From positions 62,001 to 126,000 of the forward strand of contig NZ_VAUW01000009.1 of assembly GCF_005771495.1 (NCBI RefSeq): a DNA stretch of 64,000 bases. Reading direction: 5' to 3'. Positions 52,641 to 62,966 of this stretch are shown piece after piece (the stretch's first letter is position 1; each line of letters begins with the position of its first letter). The notes beneath the pieces are model-generated. The model searched no databases. It was not told the DNA's origin and saw only the letters and a program-made list of their open reading frames with translations. The translations under genes were made by a program, and so were the position numbers. The stretch comes from Maribacter sp. ACAM166. Lineage in GTDB: Bacteria; Bacteroidota; Bacteroidia; Flavobacteriales; Flavobacteriaceae.

Positions 52641-54932
52641 TTAATTCGCCTTAATTATAGTCAAAATTCTATTTTTAGCTGACAAGGTTCCAGCGTCAAT
52701 ATTCCATCTTACATCAATCGTTTCTCCTTGAGCAATTGTAGCCATTGCTTGCAAAGCAACATCTGCCCTATTAGTTGTTGTTGTTCTAATTCTGCTAGAA
52801 TTGGGAATTAGTACTCCATTTTGATACAGGCTAAAAGTAGCAATACCATCAGTCTCCTCAACTACGGTTGTTTCTCCTGCAGGATAAACTGTTCCGTTAA
52901 CAGTCGCATCATCAAAGCCAGTTAAAGCACCAGAACCTGTTGCTAAATCTCCATTATAAGTGGATGCTCCAGTATTTCCTAATCCTCCTGTAGCTGTAAA
53001 CATTACAAAAGTGTTTATTGTTCTAAAGTTAATAGAAGAAGTACCAGACGGAAGTGAAGCTGTACCTGGACCAAAAGAAATTGCCCCTCCGGTACTTAAC
53101 ATGCGTCCTTCAAGTTCTGATCCAGCTCCTGCAGACACAGCGGCTCCGTGAGAAATAAGATTTCCAAACATTATTGTATTGGCACCTAGCCCAATAGCTC
53201 CTTCTGCTACCCAGTGTATATTACTTGCTGAAGCATTATTTTGTAAAACAACTTCTACACTAGCAGCCGTATTAAATGCCCCTGGTGTTTTAAAAACAAA
53301 AATAGCATCAGAATCACCTTCTGCGTCTAAATAAATTGTTCCTGAAAGTGATAATGCTCCATTAAAATAATATACCCCTGGTGTAAAGACTACTCCAGTT
53401 GAAATAGCGATAGGTAGAGAAACCTCAGTTACTGGAAGATTATTTATTTCATTATAAACAACATTTAAATCTTCAATTCCTTGTGATGTACTTATAACAT
53501 TTGAACTATTGGCAGGAGAAATACTGTACTGACTATTAAAAAACACCAAATATGACCCAGGTTCTGGTGATTTACTCATTCCGGACATTAAAACATCAGA
53601 AGTAGAGGAGGTAGATATATTTTCTGAATCATCAATAGAACTATAACTCGCCGATTCTCCTTGAAGCCCTTGTGGTCCTGTTTCTCCTTTTAATGAAGTA
53701 ACAAATTCAGTTTGGTTCCCTATATTTCCTTCAGAAAGCCATGTTTCATAGGCTGATGCGCCAGTTTCTCCTATCGCACCAGTTGACCCATTAATTCCAT
53801 TTTTACCATCAGAACCGTCATTTCCTGTGGCTCCATTTACGCCATCAGTTCCGGCTGCACCTTGTGAACCTGGTTCTCCGTCTGTACCATCAGTACCGGC
53901 AATACCTTGTATCCCCTGAGCACCTTGTGAGCCTGTTTCTCCTAAAGTACCAGAATCACCCTTGGCTCCAGTTGCTCCAATAGCACCGTTATTTCCGTCT
54001 ATTCCGTCAATACCTTTAGTTCCAGCGGCTCCATCAACACCATTGGCTCCAGTATCTCCGTTTGCTCCATCAATACCGTTCGTTCCAGCGGCTCCATCAA
54101 CACCATTGGCTCCAGTATCTCCGTTTGCTCCATCAACACCGTTCGTTCCAGCAGCTCCATCAACACCATTGGCTCCGGTATCTCCGTTTATTCCATTAAC
54201 ACCGTTTGTTCCATCAACACCGTTCGTTCCAGAAATTCCATCAACACCATTGGCTCCAGTATCTCCGTTTGTTCCATCAATACCGTTCGTTCCAGCGGCT
54301 CCATCAACACCATTGGCTCCAGTATCTCCGTTTGCTCCATCAACACCGTTCGTTCCATCAACACCATCAACACCATTGGCTCCGGCATCTCCATTTGTTC
54401 CATCAATACCGTTCGTTCCAGCGGCACCTTTTGCTCCAAGAGCACCGTCAATACCGTTTGGTCCAATTAAACCAATAGCTCCGTCTGCACCATTTATGCC
54501 TATCGGTCCATCAAGACCATTTATTCCAGCGTCTCCTTTTGCACCATTAACTCCGGCTGCACCTTGTGAACCTGTTTCTCCGTCTGTACCATCATTTCCA
54601 GCAACACCTTGTATCCCTTGGTCACCTTTTTCACCTCGACTAAGGCTTGCCCCATTGTTTCCGCCTGAAACCCAATTTGGTCTATCTTTAGTACCTATAT
54701 TGTTCTCAATAGCATTCACTTTGGTATTAAAAATCATCAAACCCTTAGCAGGTCTGAAAATTAAGTCACGTTCTATTGTGCTCATTCTAGGCATAAGAAA
54801 TCCTTTGCTAGTAGAACTGATATCTAAAATCGAGGATTCATCAGGGGTTTTGGTGCCAATTCCAGTTTGAGCACTAATACCCCCCGAAATAAGAACAATA
54901 AAAAATATGAAGTAATGATATACTTTTTGCAT
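52641..54932 (-). CDS. Collagen-like surface protein with DUF3494 (ice-binding-type) domain, cassette D
   Basis: A 763-residue exported protein. After the signal peptide (cut near ISAQ) comes a conserved Bacteroidota surface-protein N-terminus (GIGTKTPDESSILDIS, STSKGFLMPRMSTIERD, GLMIFNT), then ~310 residues of Gly-x-y collagen-like repeats, one KxxAYETWLSEGNIGNQTEF-type insert (~395-415), a DUF3494 domain (~450-620; TPGVYYFNGALSLSG, AIFVFKTPGAFNT, GAISFGPGT) and a C-terminal beta domain ending NRILTIIKAN. DUF3494 includes ice-binding proteins but is also used as a surface adhesin module. It follows the T9SS-type gene at 54971 by 38 bases. It has no T9SS domain of its own. Confidence 0.88.
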   Translation of the reverse strand: MQKVYHYFIFFIVLISGGISAQTGIGTKTPDESSILDISSTSKGFLMPRMSTIERDLIFRPAKGLMIFNTKVNAIENNIGTKDRPNWVSGGNNGASLSRGEKGDQGIQGVAGNDGTDGETGSQGAAGVNGAKGDAGINGLDGPIGINGADGAIGLIGPNGIDGALGAKGAAGTNGIDGTNGDAGANGVDGVDGTNGVDGANGDTGANGVDGAAGTNGIDGTNGDTGANGVDGISGTNGVDGTNGVNGINGDTGANGVDGAAGTNGVDGANGDTGANGVDGAAGTNGIDGANGDTGANGVDGAAGTKGIDGIDGNNGAIGATGAKGDSGTLGETGSQGAQGIQGIAGTDGTDGEPGSQGAAGTDGVNGATGNDGSDGKNGINGSTGAIGETGASAYETWLSEGNIGNQTEFVTSLKGETGPQGLQGESASYSSIDDSENISTSSTSDVLMSGMSKSPEPGSYLVFFNSQYSISPANSSNVISTSQGIEDLNVVYNEINNLPVTEVSLPIAISTGVVFTPGVYYFNGALSLSGTIYLDAEGDSDAIFVFKTPGAFNTAASVEVVLQNNASASNIHWVAEGAIGLGANTIMFGNLISHGAAVSAGAGSELEGRMLSTGGAISFGPGTASLPSGTSSINFRTINTFVMFTATGGLGNTGASTYNGDLATGSGALTGFDDATVNGTVYPAGETTVVEETDGIATFSLYQNGVLIPNSSRIRTTTTNRADVALQAMATIAQGETIDVRWNIDAGTLSAKNRILTIIKAN
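54031..54426. repeat. In-gene tandem repeats, 63-bp unit
   Basis: The 20-mer beginning CCATCAACACCATTGG recurs at 54031, 54094, 54157, 54238, 54301 and 54364: spacing 63 bases, with one 81-base interval (63+18). The units encode 21 residues of collagen triplets (DTGANGVDGAAGTNG type). All spacings are multiples of three and of nine, so gain or loss of units keeps the frame and the Gly register. Confidence 0.9.
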
Positions 54933-54970
54933 AATTATTATTTTTAATAAAATTTATTGTTGATTAAAAT

Positions 54971-56026
54971 CTAATACCCACCACTAATTATTTTATTTTT
55001 AAAAAGCGAGGTAGTATTAGTCAATTCAGTTGTTACAATGTACACACCAAGGTCATAATTGAAAGGTTGGTTGTGTTTGAGTACTCCATTTAATTTTTTA
55101 AAGAAAATTAAATTCCCTGCAATATCATGAACACGTAAAGTTTTTAAAGGTTGGGAAGTTTCAATAAAAAGTCTATTTTTATTTACAAATACTATCACTT
55201 CTACTATATTGGGCAAGGTAATTAGTTGCTGTTCTATTGTAGTACCTAATGAAAAGGCCGAATAAACCGATAGGTCTACTTCTGAATTCGTACTAATAGA
55301 ACCCGAATTCAAGCTACTTAATTCGCCTAGTAAAGAATACTCATCAACCATTGAAGGTATGGTGACCCACACAGAACCATTCCAACCTACAATAGTTAAA
55401 TTAGATAGTGATGATGTTAAGTCTGAAATAGCACTTGAAGGTCTCCAACTAAGCGAAATACTAGTATTTATTCCCTTACTATTTATATCCCAATATTCAA
55501 CCGAAGAGATAGATGAGATAGATGTATCCAAAGCATCACCGATCGAATTTGGTGCCGACCTAAAATACGCAGCATCTACATCGCCACTAGTTGATGGTAT
55601 TACTTGAATTGGTGCATAAATACCTGATTGTCCTATCGGTAAAATGAACGCTTCGTTACTTTGAGTTTGAGCATATCCATCTAAAAAATGAAAATCGCTG
55701 GCTTCGCTCCATGACTCTCCATTTGAAAAAGACAGAACACCATAATTTACTTTCGTTCTGCTAGTTTTTACTGAACCTACACCAAAATTAAAATCGGCTC
55801 CCGTATGAAGGAAGCTATTTTCACCTATATATATGTCACTGTTGTTTTGAACTTGTGCCTGTAGCGTAGCTAATTTAAAAAAGATGGTTACCACTATAAT
55901 AAAAGGAAAAAACAATTTTATATTTTGATTAATACTTATAAAAAAACTTTCGAATTTTGTGCTACACTTTATAATTGAAGTAACTTCAAATACATCCGTA
56001 TAATTAACTAAGTAGTTTTTTTTCAT
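54971..56026 (-). CDS. Exported protein with T9SS-type C-terminal domain, cassette D
   Basis: A 351-residue protein with an unusually long signal region (~57 residues: MKKNYLVNYTDVF..., hydrophobic core FPFIIVVTIFFKLATLQ, then AQ). The mature part (VQNNSDIYIGENSFLHTGAD, YGVLSFSNGESW, AFILPIGQSGIYAPIQV, VEYWDINSKG) is a conserved Flavobacteriia surface domain of unknown role. The C-terminal ~65 residues (LKTLRVHDIAGNLIFFKK ... DLGVYIVTTELTN ... FKNKIISGGY) resemble a T9SS sorting domain. Two intact paralogues lie at 60.6 and 61.9 kb. It precedes the collagen-like gene by 38 bases. Confidence 0.88.
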   Translation of the reverse strand: MKKNYLVNYTDVFEVTSIIKCSTKFESFFISINQNIKLFFPFIIVVTIFFKLATLQAQVQNNSDIYIGENSFLHTGADFNFGVGSVKTSRTKVNYGVLSFSNGESWSEASDFHFLDGYAQTQSNEAFILPIGQSGIYAPIQVIPSTSGDVDAAYFRSAPNSIGDALDTSISSISSVEYWDINSKGINTSISLSWRPSSAISDLTSSLSNLTIVGWNGSVWVTIPSMVDEYSLLGELSSLNSGSISTNSEVDLSVYSAFSLGTTIEQQLITLPNIVEVIVFVNKNRLFIETSQPLKTLRVHDIAGNLIFFKKLNGVLKHNQPFNYDLGVYIVTTELTNTTSLFKNKIISGGY

Positions 56027-56041
56027 GTAGTTTATCTTAGA

Positions 56042-56480
56042 TTAAAATCTAATACCTACTAATTTTTTCTTGTTTATAAGCAGCGTAGCATTATCTAATT
56101 GAGTGGTTAAAGTATATTAACCTAACTAATAATTCAAATAAAAATTGCGCAACAGACTCTTTATCTGTTGTTTACGAAAGTTTTCAACTGTAATATCATG
56201 AATTATTAAAGTCTTTGAAGGTTAAAAAACTTCAATAAATAATTTTTTAATAGTTACAGATACTATCAATTATACTTTAGCAAACTCAGGAACCAGGAGC
56301 TATTAAGTTGTAGTCATATTAATAAAGCCAATAAGTCTACTTCTGAATTTAAGTTGCTTAATATTCCTAGTATAAAATACTCTCCACCTATTGAAGGTAT
56401 AATGATACTCACAGAGCCATTCTAGCCTACACTGTTTAAATTAGATTTTGAAGATGTTATTAAAAACCTAATACAGGCTA
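56042..56480 (-). pseudogene. Decayed copy of the T9SS-type cassette protein (cassette C)
   Basis: The DNA aligns by eye with the 3' half of the neighbouring intact gene. It ends with TTAAAATCTAATACCTACTA as the intact copies do, then shows matching landmarks in the same order: the sequence for the VHDI strand (ATATCATGAATTATTAAAGTC), AGTCTACTTCTGAATTTAAG, and ACTCACAGAGCCATTCTAGCC corresponding to the VGWNGSVW region. Many substitutions, stops and indels are present and the 5' half is gone. It lies directly upstream of the intact cassette D gene. Confidence 0.75.
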
Positions 56481-56499
56481 ATGAACAAGAGTTGTTCAC

Positions 56500-57178
56500 A
56501 CAAATGAACACGACACCTGTGGTATAGGTAAGAAGATCTCAATGCTTTTGATTGTTTAAACGAACGGCTTTCGTGATTTTGAAAGCCCAAGACAATTATC
56601 CTCATATTTTGGTCTTACGCCCAACGAGCGAAAATCTGTAAGTAGCATACAGGACAGCTCTCGAATAAGGAAGACAGGAGATTTATCAGCGAGAAATCAT
56701 TTTTTCCTGCGCAGTTTTACCACCTGAATTCATAAGTCCTCAATGCACGGCGTTGTTTTGCTGAATCATACGAACTAAAAGATGAAAGAAAAAAAATTGG
56801 TTATAATCACTGAATGTAATACATTGATACAATAGGCATGCGAAAAATTTACATCAAGCTCGGATTATGATAGAAATTATGTAGATAGATAAAGCTAAAT
56901 TTTAGTTGTTTTTAGCTCAGTTCTTTGTGTTGAAATTTTTAACCGAACCATAACGAGTTCAATTCTTTACTAGCTTAATAAAATACCAAGAGTATAAACA
57001 CGAAAAAGAATCGCTAATTTTCTTCCAAAAATTTTATTATCAAAAAAATACATAAGGATTAAAGTTAATACAACTCCCCTGATTGTAACGTACATACCCT
57101 TTGTAAAGACTGCTATTTTCGGCATATACATTCGAATACAGATGCCACAAAACAGTAACGATACCCCAAAAAAGATGT
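56500..57178. other. Mostly unannotated AT-rich DNA
   Basis: No family could be recognised. The stretch 56560-56760 is less AT-rich than its surroundings and may be foreign or decayed coding DNA. A 72-codon frame (56970-57188, minus) is described separately. Confidence 0.3.
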
Positions 57179-57188
57179 TTAAAAGCAT
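56970..57188 (-). CDS. Possible small two-helix membrane protein
   Basis: A 72-residue frame whose product would have two hydrophobic helices (MLLNIFFGVSLLFCGICI and VVLTLILMYFF) joined by a basic loop. Its ATG overlaps the TAA of the coding-like piece upstream (57179), as if translationally coupled. No homologue is recognised, the flanks are decayed, and it may not be expressed. Confidence 0.3.
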   Translation of the reverse strand: MLLNIFFGVSLLFCGICIRMYMPKIAVFTKGMYVTIRGVVLTLILMYFFDNKIFGRKLAILFRVYTLGILLS

Positions 57189-57330
57189 ACGGGCTTATTT
57201 GTGATACTTTTTATGATCGTTCCTTTTTTTAAAGAATAAAAGGTGATGCCACTTTTTTTTACAATTGCACCTCTTGTGTTTTGATTGTAAGTACCCGTCT
57301 TAAAAAAGAGAACGTCACCCTCTTGATTTT
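57179..57330 (-). pseudogene. Unidentified coding relic
   Basis: Minus-strand reading gives GDVLFFKTGTYNQNTRGAIV, then KKSGITFYSLKKGTIIKSIT and NKPVCF before TAA. In a shifted frame just upstream, VVEGELSPTLWMAVKIKKS may be its continuation. GDxLFFKTG recalls NlpC/P60 peptidases, but the catalytic residues are not visible, so the family is left open. Confidence 0.35.
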
Positions 57331-57759
57331 TTAATTTTTACAGCCATCCATAATGTTGGACTCAATTCACCTTCTACTACAGTTGTTCGTTTTGTTGTAT
57401 AACGACTTCATTTTTTGAGAAGCTAGTATCTTAAAAAAATAATACAATTCCATTGAAGTGCTATGCGACCATTATTCATGATAAAAATAACCAAGAGCGC
57501 TGTGAATAAAGCTAATTTGAAACGCAAATAGTGTCTTTCGATTTGTCCTAATAGCTATTATCCTTTTTAATATTGACTTAATTAGTTATTTAACTAGAGA
57601 CTTTAATTTTAGTTAACGGGTTTTTGGAAAAAACTTTTTTTAATACTTTATACTAAAATAATGGGCTTTTGAGTATATGTCGGGTGTGGACTTCAAACCT
57701 GGCACAATATGTTTATATATAAAAAACAGTGGTTTTGAAAGCCTTAACCTACCTGTATT
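57331..57759. other. Gene-free stretch, nothing recognised
   Basis: AT-rich DNA with stops in all frames and no repeat, hairpin or coding relic that I could support. Confidence 0.35.
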
Positions 57760-57794
57760 AAAAAAGCGCAAGCCATAGTGGCTTGCGCTTTTTT
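57760..57794 (-). terminator. Terminator after collagen-like gene (cassette B)
   Basis: A perfect 16-bp stem (AAAAAAGCGCAAGCCA and its complement) with a 3-base loop; on the minus strand it ends in a T-run. It lies 48 bases past the stop codon. Confidence 0.93.
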
Positions 57795-57842
57795 TAACTA
57801 AATTATTACTATACTAGTAGTCGTTCTTTAACCTTACTTGTA

Positions 57843-60578
57843 TTATTGATTTGTTACGACGGGTTCTTCAACAGGAACCTCCATAGGAAGTTCTGGTGTC
57901 GGATTAACCTTTATTAAGGTTAAAACCCTATTGTCTACAGACAAAGTTCCCGCATCAATACTCCATCTTGCCTCTATACGTTCACCTTCAGCAATAGTAG
58001 CCATTGCTTGTAAAGTAACATCTACCGTATTAACTTTTGTTGTTCTTGTTCTGGTAGAATTAGGAATTAACTCCCCATGGTTATAAAGGCTAAACGTGGC
58101 ATTACCATCAAGCTCCTTAATTACTTCAACATTCCCACCAGCTGGAACAATTTCTCCAGTATGATTAGCGTCTGTAAAGCCTGATATAGCACCAGCTTTA
58201 GTTGATACTTGTCCTTCAACCGCTCCACCTGTGTTTGCAATTGCCCCAGCTTTTGTAAGCATAACAAAAGAATGTACAGCTCCCATGCTAATTTCAGAAA
58301 TGGCTTCGGGAACAGAAATTTCTCCTCCTGAAATAGCTATGGCTCCTCCGAGACTTAACATTCTTCCATCCACCGTACAACCAGCACCGACAGCCACAGC
58401 AATCTTAGATAATAGATTTCCATGAATTATGGTACCTGCTCCTAACCCAATAGCTCCAGTGGATACCCAAAAAATATTTTCCGCCGATGCTCCGTTTATT
58501 AATTCAACTGTAACCCCAGCAGTCGTATTAAACGCACCTCCTGTTTTAAAAACGTACACTCCGGCTCCATCTAACGTGACATCGGTTCCAATGCTTAAAG
58601 CTCCTCCGTAAGAATATGTACCTGGCGTAATTGTTTTGCCCCCAATATTAGTAGCAGCTCCGGTATGACTACCTTTCATGGCATCAATATCTTTAAAGAG
58701 TTTTTGTAAATCCGTAAGTGCATCTTTTGTAGTTACAGTAGCTACCTCATAAGCTGGTTCAATACTATATTCACTATTAAAAAAGACCAAATAATTTCCA
58801 GCAATAGGTGCTTTACTCATTCCGTTTATTTCAACAGCAGAAGATGAGGAAGTCGAAATACTTCCTGAATCATCAATAGAATTAGAGCTAGGCGACTCAC
58901 CTTCAATTCCTTGTGGCCCAACCTCTCCTGTTTCTCCAATTTCTCCTTTTAGTGAAGCAATAAATTCAGCTTTATCTCCTACATTGACTCCATTTGCTTC
59001 ACTACCCCATATTTCATAGGCTGATGCACCCGTATCTCCTGTCGTACCGATTGATCCATTACTTCCGTTTGTACCATCAGCACCGTCATTTCCTGTTGCT
59101 CCATTTGCCCCAGTTGCTCCGGTATCTCCTTTAGCACCTTCTTCACCGTCATATCCATTATTTCCATTTTTTCCATTTTCTCCATTTACTCCTGCCTCTC
59201 CTTGTGCTCCTGTTTGTCCTTGTGCACCATCTTCTCCTTGTGCTCCATTAACTCCATCTTGGCCATCAGCTCCATTAACCCCTGGTGCTCCGTCTTCTCC
59301 GTCTGCACCATCTAAACCATTTGTAAACTGATCTTGAGTACCACCAGTATTTGTTTCTAACCAAATTTCAAAAGCTGATTTCCCATCTGCTCCATCAGTA
59401 CCGTCAACTCCATCTTGGCCATCAGCTCCATTAATCCCTGGTGCTCCGTCTTCTCCGTTTGCACCATCTAAACCATTAGCAAAGTCATCTGGAGTACCGC
59501 CAGTATTTGTTTCTAACCAAATTTCAAAAGCTGATTTCCCATCTGCTCCATTAGTACCGTCAACTCCATCTTGGCCATCAGCTCCATTAACACCTGGTGC
59601 TCCGTCTTCTCCGTCTGCACCATCTAAACCATTTGTAAACTGATCTTGAGTACCGCCAGTGTTTGTTTCTAACCAAATTTCAAAAGCTGATTTCCCATCT
59701 GCTCCATCTTGGCCATCAGCTCCATTAACCCCTGGTGCTCCGTCTTCTCCGTCTGCACCATCTAAACCATTTGTAAACTGATCTTGAGTACCACCAGTAT
59801 TTGTTTCTAACCAAATTTCAAAAGCTGATTTCCCATCTGCTCCATCAGTACCATCAACTCCATCTTGGCCATCAGCTCCATTAATCCCTGGTGCTCCGTC
59901 TTCTCCGTTTGCACCATCTAAACCATTAGCAAAGTCATCTGGAGTACCGCCAGTATTTGTTTCTAACCAAATTTCAAAAGCTGATTTCCCATCTGCTCCT
60001 GTTGCTCCTTGTACTCCAGGTAAACCTTGTGGGCCTTGTTCTCCAGTATCACCTTTTGCACCATTGGTAAAGTCATCTGGATTTGCGTTTGGATTTGCAA
60101 TTTCCCAAATTTCTAAAGCCGATAGACCATCTGCTCCGTTTGCTCCTGGTAAACCTTGTGGTCCCTGTGCTCCATCATTTAAAGCTGCAAAAAACTCATC
60201 TTCTGAGCCATAATTTCCTAATGTTAACCATATATCATATGCAGATTTCCCGTCATCTCCATGAGCTCCTTTTGGTCCTCTTGATCCTCTTGCTCCTTTT
60301 TCACCTTTATCTGAAGCCCATATTGGCTCATCTTTAGTGCCTACATTGTTTTCCACTGTATTAGCTGTAGTATTAAAAATCATCAATCCCTTAGCAGGTC
60401 TGAAAATTAAGTCACGTTCTATTGTACTCAATCTAGGCATAAGAAATCCTTTACTCGTAGATCTGATTTCTAAAATCGAAGATTCATCAGGGTTGTTAGT
60501 GCCAATTCCTGTTTGAGCACTTACACCCACCGAAATAAGTATAATTAAAAAAAATAGGGGACTTTTGAATTTTTTCAT
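57843..60578 (-). CDS. Collagen-like surface protein with DUF3494 domain, cassette B
   Basis: A 911-residue paralogue of the protein at 52641. It has a signal peptide (cut near VSAQ) and the same GIGTNNPDESSILEI ... GFLMPRLSTIERD ... GLMIFNT module. A ~470-residue stalk follows, in which collagen triplets alternate with about eight modules of the KSAFEIWLETNTGG type, then a DUF3494 domain (~560-770; TPGTYSYGGALSIG, GVYVFKTGGAFNTT, GAIAISGGEISVP) and a C-terminal beta domain (STRTRTTKVNTVDVTLQA, NRVLTLIKVN) with a Pro/Glu-rich tail. It starts 36 bases after the T9SS-type gene at 60615. Probably a long surface fibre or adhesin; ice binding is possible but unproven. Confidence 0.88.
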   Translation of the reverse strand: MKKFKSPLFFLIILISVGVSAQTGIGTNNPDESSILEIRSTSKGFLMPRLSTIERDLIFRPAKGLMIFNTTANTVENNVGTKDEPIWASDKGEKGARGSRGPKGAHGDDGKSAYDIWLTLGNYGSEDEFFAALNDGAQGPQGLPGANGADGLSALEIWEIANPNANPDDFTNGAKGDTGEQGPQGLPGVQGATGADGKSAFEIWLETNTGGTPDDFANGLDGANGEDGAPGINGADGQDGVDGTDGADGKSAFEIWLETNTGGTQDQFTNGLDGADGEDGAPGVNGADGQDGADGKSAFEIWLETNTGGTQDQFTNGLDGADGEDGAPGVNGADGQDGVDGTNGADGKSAFEIWLETNTGGTPDDFANGLDGANGEDGAPGINGADGQDGVDGTDGADGKSAFEIWLETNTGGTQDQFTNGLDGADGEDGAPGVNGADGQDGVNGAQGEDGAQGQTGAQGEAGVNGENGKNGNNGYDGEEGAKGDTGATGANGATGNDGADGTNGSNGSIGTTGDTGASAYEIWGSEANGVNVGDKAEFIASLKGEIGETGEVGPQGIEGESPSSNSIDDSGSISTSSSSAVEINGMSKAPIAGNYLVFFNSEYSIEPAYEVATVTTKDALTDLQKLFKDIDAMKGSHTGAATNIGGKTITPGTYSYGGALSIGTDVTLDGAGVYVFKTGGAFNTTAGVTVELINGASAENIFWVSTGAIGLGAGTIIHGNLLSKIAVAVGAGCTVDGRMLSLGGAIAISGGEISVPEAISEISMGAVHSFVMLTKAGAIANTGGAVEGQVSTKAGAISGFTDANHTGEIVPAGGNVEVIKELDGNATFSLYNHGELIPNSTRTRTTKVNTVDVTLQAMATIAEGERIEARWSIDAGTLSVDNRVLTLIKVNPTPELPMEVPVEEPVVTNQ
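59230..60000. repeat. In-gene tandem repeats, 138/156-bp units
   Basis: CCAAATTTCAAAAGCTGATT recurs at 59361, 59517, 59673, 59811 and 59967: spacings 156, 156, 138 and 156 bases. The units encode 52 or 46 residues (GKSAFEIWLETNTGG, a TPDDFANGLDG or TQDQFTNGLDG variant, then collagen triplets). Units 1 and 4 counted from the protein N-terminus are nearly identical, pointing to recent duplication. All lengths are multiples of three. Confidence 0.92.
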
Positions 60579-60614
60579 TGGTTGTCTTTTAATATAATTT
60601 GTTATTGATAAGAT

Positions 60615-61643
60615 TTAATACCCACCACTAATTATTTTATTTTTAAAAAGCGAAGTAGTATCATACAACTCAGTGGTTACGATGTACACACCAAGATCAT
60701 AATTGAAGGGTCGATTGTATGTTAAACCTCCATCTATATTTTTTAAGATTATTTGTTTCCCTGAAATATCATGAACAACCAAGGTCTTTAATGGTTGAGT
60801 AGCTTCAATATATAGTATGTGTTTATTTACATATACTATCACTTCTGCTTTATTAGACAAAGTAACCAGTAGTTGTTCTGTTCTAGTGCCTAATGAAAAA
60901 GCTGAATAAGCCGATAGGTCTAGTTCTTCGTTCGTACTAATAGAACCTGAATCCAAACTGCTTAATTCCCCTAACAATGAATACTCATCAACCATTGAAG
61001 GTATGGCGACCCACACAGAGCCATTCCAACCTACAAGAGTTAAATTGGATAGTGAAGATGATGTCAAATCTGAAATAGCACTTGAAGGTCTCCAACTAAG
61101 TGAAATACCGGTATTTACTCCATTACTAATTACATCCCAATATTCAACCGAAGAGATTGATGAGAGAGAGCTCTCCAAAGCACTACCAATTGAGTTTGGT
61201 GCCGACCTGAAATATGCAGCATCTACACCGTCACTAGTTGATGGTATTACTCGAATTGGAGCATATATACCTGCTTGTCCTATCGGTAGAATAAACGCTT
61301 CATTACTTTGCGTTTGCGCATAGCCATCTAAAAAATGAATATCGCTAGCTCCGCTCCATGTTGCTCCATTTGAAAAAGACAAAACACCATAATCTAATTT
61401 CGTTCTGCTAGTTGTGGTTGAACCTTCACCAAAAGTAAAGTCTTCCGCTCCAGTAGAAAGTAAGCTATTATCACCTATATATATATCACTGTGGTTTTGA
61501 ACTTGCGCCTGAAGGGTATTCAAGTTACAAAATATAGTAACCATTAAAAGATATGGAAAAAACGATTTAATTTTTTGTTTAGTTATGCTTAATGCGGTAC
61601 CATCAAATACATCTAAATACCTAGTTGAGTAATTTTTTTTCAT
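60615..61643 (-). CDS. Exported protein with T9SS-type C-terminal domain, cassette B
   Basis: A 342-residue paralogue of the proteins at 54971 and 61905. The signal region is long (~47 residues, MKKNYSTRYLDVF ... LLMVTIFCNLNTLQAQ) and shorter than in the other copies by about ten residues. The mature domain (NHSDIYIGDNSLLSTGAEDF, YGVLSFSNGATWSG, FILPIGQAGIYAPIRV) and the T9SS-like C-terminus (LKTLVVHDISGKQIILKN ... DLGVYIVTTELYD) are intact. A 12-base box, TTTTCGCCAAGA, lies 58 bases upstream of the ATG, as in the 61905 copy. It precedes the large collagen-like gene by 36 bases and is probably co-transcribed with it. Confidence 0.88.
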   Translation of the reverse strand: MKKNYSTRYLDVFDGTALSITKQKIKSFFPYLLMVTIFCNLNTLQAQVQNHSDIYIGDNSLLSTGAEDFTFGEGSTTTSRTKLDYGVLSFSNGATWSGASDIHFLDGYAQTQSNEAFILPIGQAGIYAPIRVIPSTSDGVDAAYFRSAPNSIGSALESSLSSISSVEYWDVISNGVNTGISLSWRPSSAISDLTSSSLSNLTLVGWNGSVWVAIPSMVDEYSLLGELSSLDSGSISTNEELDLSAYSAFSLGTRTEQLLVTLSNKAEVIVYVNKHILYIEATQPLKTLVVHDISGKQIILKNIDGGLTYNRPFNYDLGVYIVTTELYDTTSLFKNKIISGGY

Positions 61644-61700
61644 GTTCTAACATTCATTATTACATGCAAGTCTACCGCTATTAATTAGCGTATTATTTTG

Positions 61701-61712
61701 TTTTCGCCAAGA
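61701..61712 (-). promoter_or_regulatory. Shared upstream box of cassette genes (copy B)
   Basis: TTTTCGCCAAGA (plus strand) occurs 58 bases before the cassette B start and again 58 bases before the cassette A start (63024). On the minus strand it reads TCTTGGCGAAAA, whose TTG could be part of a Bacteroidota -33 element. Identity at the same distance suggests a retained promoter or binding site. Confidence 0.5.
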
Positions 61713-61816
61713 GCCGCTTATTTGCTGCTGAAGTGTATACTTAGTTTAGACCAATAGATAAGAGTGATATATTGCTCGTTAAAATGTATTACACATGTAT
61801 TTGAGCACTTCTAATT

Positions 61817-61865
61817 CCGAAATAAGTATAATTAAAAATATGAAGTAATTTTTTACTTTTTGCAT
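61817..61865 (-). pseudogene. 5' stub of a third collagen-like gene (cassette A)
   Basis: The minus strand starts ATGCAAAAAGTAAAAAATTA and encodes MQKVKNYFIFLIILIS, nearly the signal peptide of the 52641 protein (MQKVYHYFIFFIVLIS). DNA similarity to the start of that gene is obvious (AAATATGAAGTAAT...TACTTTTTGCAT). After about 16 codons homology stops, so the body was deleted. It sits 40 bases after the cassette A T9SS-type gene, exactly where a collagen partner is expected. Confidence 0.8.
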
Positions 61866-61904
61866 TGTTGTTATATTTAAGAATAGTCTATGGTAGATTA
61901 AAAT

Positions 61905-62966
61905 CTAATACCTACCACTAATTATTTTCTCTCTAAAAAGCCAAGTAGCATTATGCACTTCGGTTGTTACAATGTATACACCTAGGTCATAATTAAAAGG
62001 TTGATTGTATGTTAAACCTCCATCTAGCTTTTTCGAGAATATTAGTTTACCTGCAATATCATGAACAATCAAAGTCTTTAAAGGCTGGGAAGCTTCAATA
62101 AATACTCTATTTTTATTTACATATACTATCACTTCTACTTTATTAGACAAAGTAACCAGTACTTCTTCTGTTGAAGTGCCTAATGAAAATACGGAATAAG
62201 CCGATAGGTCTACTTCTTCATTCGTACTAATAGAACCCGAATTCAAGCTACTTAATTTGCCTAACAAAGAATACTCATCAATCATTGATGGTATGGCGAC
62301 CCACACAGAACCATTCCAACCTACAATAGTTAAATTAGATAGTGAAGATGATGTCAAATCTGTAATAGCACTTGAAGGTCTCCAACTAAGGGAAATGTTG
62401 GTCTTTACTCCCTTACTATTTATATCCCAGTATTCAACCGAAGAGATTGATGAGATAGACCCATCCAAAGCACCACCAATAGAGTTTGGTGCCGACCTGA
62501 AATAGGCAGCATCTACACCTCCACTAGTTGACGGTATTACTTGGATTGGAGCATAAATACCCGATTGTCCTATCGGTAAAATGAACTCTTCATCGCTCTG
62601 AGTTTGACCATACCCATCTAAAAAATGAATATCGCTAGCTCCGCTCCATGAGGCTCCATTTGAAAAAGATAGAACGCCATAATCTATTTTCGTTCTGCTA
62701 GTTGTGGTTGAACCTTCACCAAAATTAAAGTTATTGGCTCCAGTATAAAATAAGCTATTATCACCTATATATATGTCACTGTGGTTTTGAACTTGTGCCT
62801 GTAGCGTACTCAGTTTAAATAAGATAGTTACCAATAAAAAATAAGTGACAACCGATTTTATTTTTTGATTAATGACCATGACAAAAGTTTCGAATTTTAT
62901 ACTACACGTCATTAATGAAGTAATATAAAACACGTTAGAATACTTAGCTAAATAGTTTTTTGTCAT
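61905..62966 (-). CDS. Exported protein with T9SS-type C-terminal domain, cassette A
   Basis: A 353-residue paralogue of the cassette B and D proteins. It has the long signal region (~57 residues, MTKNYLAKYSNVF ... FLLVTILFKLSTLQAQ), the conserved body (NHSDIYIGDNSLFYTGANNF, YGVLSFSNGASWSG, FILPIGQSGIYAPIQV, VEYWDINSKGV) and the T9SS-like C-terminus (LKTLIVHDIAGKLIFSKK ... DLGVYIVTTEVHN ... FREKIISGRY). Its collagen-like partner is reduced to a stub downstream. The gene itself looks intact and has the same upstream box as cassette B. Confidence 0.87.
   Translation of the reverse strand: MTKNYLAKYSNVFYITSLMTCSIKFETFVMVINQKIKSVVTYFLLVTILFKLSTLQAQVQNHSDIYIGDNSLFYTGANNFNFGEGSTTTSRTKIDYGVLSFSNGASWSGASDIHFLDGYGQTQSDEEFILPIGQSGIYAPIQVIPSTSGGVDAAYFRSAPNSIGGALDGSISSISSVEYWDINSKGVKTNISLSWRPSSAITDLTSSSLSNLTIVGWNGSVWVAIPSMIDEYSLLGKLSSLNSGSISTNEEVDLSAYSVFSLGTSTEEVLVTLSNKVEVIVYVNKNRVFIEASQPLKTLIVHDIAGKLIFSKKLDGGLTYNQPFNYDLGVYIVTTEVHNATWLFREKIISGRY

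Follow-up and report, generated by a model that had tools for sequence, protein, structure and literature searches.

We analysed a 64,000-nucleotide stretch of the genome of Maribacter sp. ACAM166 (contig NZ_VAUW01000009.1, positions 62,001 to 126,000; C114 62001-126000 of source genome G000, hereafter the window), in which genes for two kinds of putative surface protein, A and B, form an array on the minus strand. The collagen-like B proteins, B1 (763 residues, 52641-54932) and B2 (911 residues, 57843-60578), consist of an N-terminal module, a collagen region and a C-terminal head. The architecture of the head is close to certain at the sequence level and well supported by a predicted model: a DUF3494 ice-binding domain with its segments in permuted order is nested within a TNF/BclA-like domain. 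Gene layout, this nested and permuted head, a kept row of ice-binding residues and the linkage of A to the N-terminal module make up the observed basis of the reading to which we give moderate confidence, namely that each A-B pair forms a cell-surface hair that holds or shapes ice. From these we infer the contact between A and B and the role in ice attachment. The Gly-X-Y region of exported B would form a triple-helical stalk, and the C-terminal domain, judging from its family and from the collagen stalk, would trimerise at the fibre tip. Because each protomer of the trimer would carry one solenoid, spliced into a loop of the host domain, the tip would present three ice-binding faces. A, exported and with a C-terminus resembling those of the type IX secretion system (T9SS), would be the partner at the cell end, gripping B by its conserved N-terminal module.

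The B2 head (alignment row P0001) lies at 57846-58913 and consists of the TNF/BclA-like domain and the inserted permuted DUF3494. In the B1 head (P0002), residues 1-48 (53511-53654) and 253-337 (52644-52898) correspond to the first and second halves of the TNF/BclA-like jelly roll, and residues 49-252 (52899-53510) to the insert, all boundaries being approximate. The original prediction had the B proteins ending in DUF3494; the C-terminus is instead formed by the second half of the host domain. Ice_binding (PF11999) matches both proteins above the Pfam cut-off (99.7 and 106.5 bits vs 28.7), the match starting only at profile position 16-18 and leaving about 145-160 residues trailing behind. 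An alignment of the two B proteins with two relatives of other genera, in which the two ends of the head are halves of one domain with a reordered DUF3494 between them, suggests that the match is partial and the tail long because the reordered domain sits inside another. Within the B1 insert, the helix and solenoid body come first (~49-207) and the canonical N-terminal segment last (~202-264 by hidden Markov model, HMM).

This HMM was built from the 101 canonical DUF3494 domains of the fetched loci (numbered L), with the heads left out. Its N-terminal segment (~positions 10-75) matches after the body in 42/42 heads, at an independent E-value (i-E) below 1e-3 in 39 of them and at 0.0051, 0.086 and 0.094 in the remaining three. 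The heads do not follow the canonical order of N-terminal segment, helix and solenoid, and are permuted members of DUF3494. The canonical domains of G000 (contigs C45, C70 and C92) and of G006, taken as a control, have the segment ahead of the body. Two simpler accounts were rejected: a chance match of the second segment, by the 39 heads below 1e-3, and a plain C-terminal DUF3494 domain, by the nested architecture seen in both the sequence and the predicted model. The 42 rows derive from 50 full or near-full open reading frames (ORFs), including the two of the window, after omission of duplicates (L034, L049, L035 and L036), two insert-free paralogues and the short L079 and L064:13534. The rows are mutually related, so that counts over heads are not independent, and the heads were collected with a head profile, which makes their agreement with one another expected; the independent part of the evidence is the match of the first segment of the canonical profile at the far end.

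The head aligns unbroken with tandem two-domain proteins. Residues 55-263 align with residues 56-271 of the chain of IBPv (PDB 5UYT), running from the body of domain A into the start of domain B, and query residues 50-260 and 39-261 align likewise with the tandem proteins of G000 on C45 and C92. Because of these unbroken alignments, the simplest history for the head solenoid would be that it was excised from a tandem two-domain ice-binding protein as its middle part. G000 encodes five more canonical DUF3494 domains on C45, C70 and C92, of which four form two tandem pairs and one stands by itself; elsewhere in the genus they are found only in G006, of 36 genomes.

The host domain has the TNF/C1q/BclA jelly-roll fold in the predicted model. 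BclA_C (PF18573) matches 6/12 rows at E <= 0.05, and searches of the domain against PDB by sequence and against NCBIfam gave nothing convincing. Among 397 genomes of the family, a host-domain search found four, three of which have nested heads; in the fourth, G067 (E 3.8e-4), the protein lacks collagen and, by eye, ends in a gliding-type tail. Two paralogues lack the insert (L064:12849-13505 and L067:11430-12086). Because they lie among insert-bearing rows in a midpoint-rooted tree of 44 host-domain rows without outgroup, the evidence leans towards loss of the insert rather than an ancestral state.

The ice-binding face can be compared with that of IBPv, where enlarging A364, A391, A410 or G429 of domain B cut thermal hysteresis from 2.11 to <1 degree (PMC5673226). 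With the numbering anchored by cysteines, these residues correspond in the B1 head to A126, A153, A172 and A191, and S431 to S193; the small-residue row of the B2 head is the same. The weaker domain A of IBPv has Leu174 at the position of B1 A153. All four row positions are A or G in 33/42 heads, both window heads included, a count equalled by 1 of 20,000 random draws of four columns from the body. The full A/G row is present in 14/101 canonical domains, that is, in 13/34 that are IBPv-like and 1/67 others, a division for which the loci were picked by eye. This is evidence, not proof, that the face has been kept, since the rows share descent and packing may likewise favour small residues. We consider it likely that the head binds ice.

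The best-surviving alternative accepts the nested architecture and denies the solenoid its ice-binding function, so that B would be a general adhesin or matrix protein for glycans or surfaces. The best matches of the host domain are glycan-binding TNF-like lectins, DUF3494 is present in many genomes across varied taxa, and a stalk of collagen is a typical trait of bacterial adhesins; the SclA, SclB and Lcl collagen-adhesin models of NCBIfam match B, all below their cut-offs. We nevertheless regard this alternative as unlikely, given that the row is kept in heads far above its frequency in canonical domains. The titles of head-bearing records also speak for ice: among the names are Flavobacterium gillisiae, F. 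yafengii, F. ranwuense, Aequorivita antarctica, Psychroserpens burtonensis, Polaribacter glomeratus and Bizionia saleffrena, which we take to be species of largely cold habitats.

The remainder of B would form a stalk with a docking end. B is probably exported by a signal peptide recognised by eye. In B1, residues 1-92 (54657-54932) comprise the signal peptide and N-terminal module and have counterparts in other proteins whose genes adjoin A-like genes, and the collagen region (residues 100-393, 53754-54635) has 98 Gly-X-Y triplets in one run. Collagen (PF01391) matches both proteins above the Pfam cut-off (151.1 and 140.1 bits vs 27.2). The two proteins have 102 and 103 triplets, those of B2 (103) being spread over nine runs with five SAFEIW segments in between. 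At the DNA level, the B2 collagen region holds a 156/138-base repeat at 59250-59999, which encodes five near-identical SAFEIW...GLDG segments.

The A proteins match no Pfam family. Eight of the closest relatives outside G000 were examined (L147-L154); they share the A part and differ in their tails. The C-termini of L150, L152, L153 and L154 clear the cut-off of TIGR04183 (T9SS type A) with 31.4-42.9 bits, and those of the relatives in L147 and L002 clear that of T9SS type B, with L003 below it (28.0 vs 35). In L149:1096-2277 and L151:1177-2241 the T9SS tail is replaced by an OmpA-like C-terminus of the peptidoglycan-binding type, in matches that fall short of the cut-offs set for these models. 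Because A relatives end in either type of T9SS domain (A or B) or in OmpA-like domains, a role of A as anchor is favoured over one as exporter, and chances that A is an anchor seem to us slightly better than even. Presence of a T9SS in G000 is indicated by SprA_N (E 1.4e-135), the component searched for. In L078, a T9SS-tailed protein encoded directly upstream of a head clears the type A cut-off, and the A profile misses it.

A-like genes were found in 182/397 family genomes at E <= 0.001, with many matches covering only part of the protein. In L150, L152, L153 and L154, A is followed within <=20 nucleotides by a protein with the B N-terminal module and a very different distal part, and in L151 a collagen protein with a B-type module is encoded directly upstream of the A-like gene; L147, L148 and L149 have no module gene within their short flanks. 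All four module genes of G000 (4/4) stand in A clusters: two in the window, one on C83 directly upstream of an A-like gene, and one on C7 within the same gene row. Over the 36 genomes of the genus, for 49/70 module genes an A-like gene lies no more than 6 kb away on the same strand, and 44/60 A-like genes are accompanied by a module gene, counts that leave out a G036 match (other genus) and two decayed-A fragments. The rough chance expectation is 0.25% per gene, to be read with the loci being largely orthologous. In a separate observation, G334 has 33 module matches, vs 1-13 in each of eight further genomes searched.

These counts also bear on whether A and B are mere neighbours, A being independent and perhaps co-transcribed, and B being secreted or attached in some other way. 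Such an arrangement would agree with the 21/70 module genes that lack an A-like neighbour within 6 kb, some of them at contig ends, and with the fetched loci as a whole, where a module gene lies within 300 bp of 20/52 A-like ORFs (window copies being counted repeatedly) and is missing at 32/52, with short flanks. By eye, many A-like genes of the genus precede a different gene family, and no A was seen in 19/22 related head loci. We consider simple neighbourhood quite improbable, more so than a role without ice. The genus linkage is far above chance, though with the orthology just noted; the sole module gene of each of G310, G370 and G203 stands behind A; and gene order stays constant while distal parts differ. 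Because a shared A part with differing tails adjoins fibres with a shared N-terminal module and differing tips, anchor plus fibre is the best reading of the pair. It may extend, tentatively and at somewhat less than even chances, to a general two-gene display system of Bacteroidota, in which an A anchor with a tail of either T9SS type or of OmpA-like kind would dock a fibre with an exchangeable payload. The payload of cold lineages would be the trimeric tip with the permuted solenoid, a multivalent, stalked ice gripper for which we found no described counterpart.

In the direction of transcription the array reads A3, a B stub, A2, B2, a decayed A half, A1 and B1. A3 (353 residues, 61905-62966) is exported, with a weak T9SS type A-like C-terminus; its paralogues A2 (342 residues, 60615-61643) and A1 (351 residues, 54971-56026) complete the set of three intact genes of about 350 residues that had been predicted, and mutual identity among the three is 77-79%. 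The predicted spacing of 36-38 bases between two A genes and their collagen-like genes was confirmed (36 nucleotides from stop to start for A2-B2, 38 for A1-B1), as was the 5' stub of B after the third, which comprises 16 codons of signal peptide (61818-61865). A fourth, decayed A copy is present at 56054-56478, interrupted by stop codons, and represents only the C-terminal half of the gene (A residues ~188-349, in two frames). The array is not a chance arrangement, because direct repeats of 61-88% identity pair the gene copies. The A frames begin about 30 residues ahead of the A start in L061, and translation may in fact begin at a later codon.

Heads and N-terminal modules seem to have been shuffled, because their kinships disagree: the B1 head is 73% identical to that of L061 and the B2 head 71% to that of L060, vs 52% between B1 and B2, and the modules of B1 and B2 are 81% identical, with 38% between the modules of B1 and the L061 head gene. 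This pattern, the tandem copies and the relics might recall the variable surface-antigen system that had been proposed, here taken as one exchanging head cassettes, for which we found no positive support (no search dedicated to silent cassettes, recombination sites, inversion or phase-variation features was made) and which is very unlikely with only two complete B genes and the ice-binding row conserved in both.

Beyond the window, a genome scan for heads gave 140 matches, of which the best 80 were followed, and more distant nested heads may therefore be missing. Of the 74 loci kept, 22 (L060-L081) have full or near-full heads, as do two IMG/VR loci. The head profile matches 2/36 genomes of the genus, at full length in G000 only, and 15/397 of the family, three at full length. 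Heads occur in tandem in L064, L067, L069, L070, L077 and L080, including collagen-free arrays at L064:8578-16292 (6 ORFs), L067:1445-12086 (8 ORFs; like L064, with one insert-free paralogue), L069:5249-10554 (4 ORFs) and L070:4537-9832 (4 ORFs). Among the 22 loci a long collagen region is found only in L060 (F. gillisiae, 657 residues), and L071 has a short one by the same pattern (48 residues). In L060 the A gene ahead of the collagen gene (L060:5438-6477) is fragmented into A residues 1-86 and 288-353, by decay or assembly error. The IMG/VR contigs carry nested permuted heads at L134:4941-6014 and L135:3-965; a neighbour in L135 matches the phage baseplate family phrog_20556 (E 1.3e-6), and the other neighbours tested on the two contigs match nothing. 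The B1 head had no match among 50,697 phage records and partial matches only, in 18 records, among plasmids.

Several of our results weigh against hairs that hold ice. The predicted T9SS-like C-terminus of A is recognisable as a similarity and falls short of the TIGR04183 cut-off of 23 (14.9, 15.9 and 18.5 bits for the three window proteins). B itself carries no T9SS tail for passage across the outer membrane. The predicted model of the head has a predicted template modelling (pTM) score of 0.69, and the angle between the two head parts is unsure. BclA_C misses its cut-off in an insert-free paralogue (26.3 vs 38 bits), and PF18573 finds no match in G000, nor in the controls of that search. By the Gly-X-Y pattern, the remaining loci of the 22 have no collagen region. 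The A family is detected in 3/22 head loci (L060, L061 and L064), some flanks being short. The predicted partnership of A with the fibre is supported by A-like/N-module pairs with differing distal parts, in the genus and in other genera; the outcome named beforehand as refuting it (no co-conservation elsewhere, or tails failing T9SS models) occurred in part, for the ice-binding head mostly appears without an A-like gene and the window tails stay below the cut-off.

Each part of this system is known; no description of the nested permuted head or of the general A/N-module pair turned up in the open-access literature, where we found no permuted DUF3494, no DUF3494 with BclA and no A/B gene pair. 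IBPv of Flavobacteriaceae strain 3519-10 is a free two-domain protein of canonical order (PMC5673226); unlike B, it has neither a stalk nor a TNF-like domain to host it, and no partner gene. ComZ of Thermus thermophilus resembles the B head in having an FfIBP-like beta-solenoid inserted in another fold at a fibre tip; it differs in its pilin host, its function in DNA uptake and its ice-binding positions, which are not conserved, and the accessible text mentions no permutation (PMC6561018). The accessible text of PMC9957290 describes an architecture of Arctic metagenomes, pfam11999_pfam01391, that joins DUF3494 and collagen in one protein as B does, given by Pfam names with no mention of permutation or insertion, and the ice adhesins of Marinomonas primoryensis and Shewanella frigidimarina, whose proposed task, as for B, is to tether the cell to ice by a long stalk. 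Another Flavobacterium antifreeze-like protein has been described (PMC13413566). The exosporium proteins BclA, F-BclA and ExsF and the lectins BC2L-C and PLTL have no inserted solenoid, unlike the B head, and SclA, SclB and Lcl share the collagen stalk and have other heads and anchors. The stalk of the Marinomonas and Shewanella adhesins consists of Ig-like repeats rather than collagen, and they are not known to have a TNF-like tip or A partner.

If the proposal is correct, cells would have another means to hold ice, a hair of collagen whose tip has three faces, and its natural display of ice-binding domains in threes would bear on valency in ice binding. DUF3494 would provide a natural case of circular permutation and nested insertion with the ice-binding face preserved, and a widespread, unnamed gene pair of Flavobacteriaceae would gain a testable function.

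On the contig, the array is flanked past A3 by a gene that we take to be transaldolase-like, and past B1 by a beta-galactosidase gene of glycosyl hydrolase family 2.

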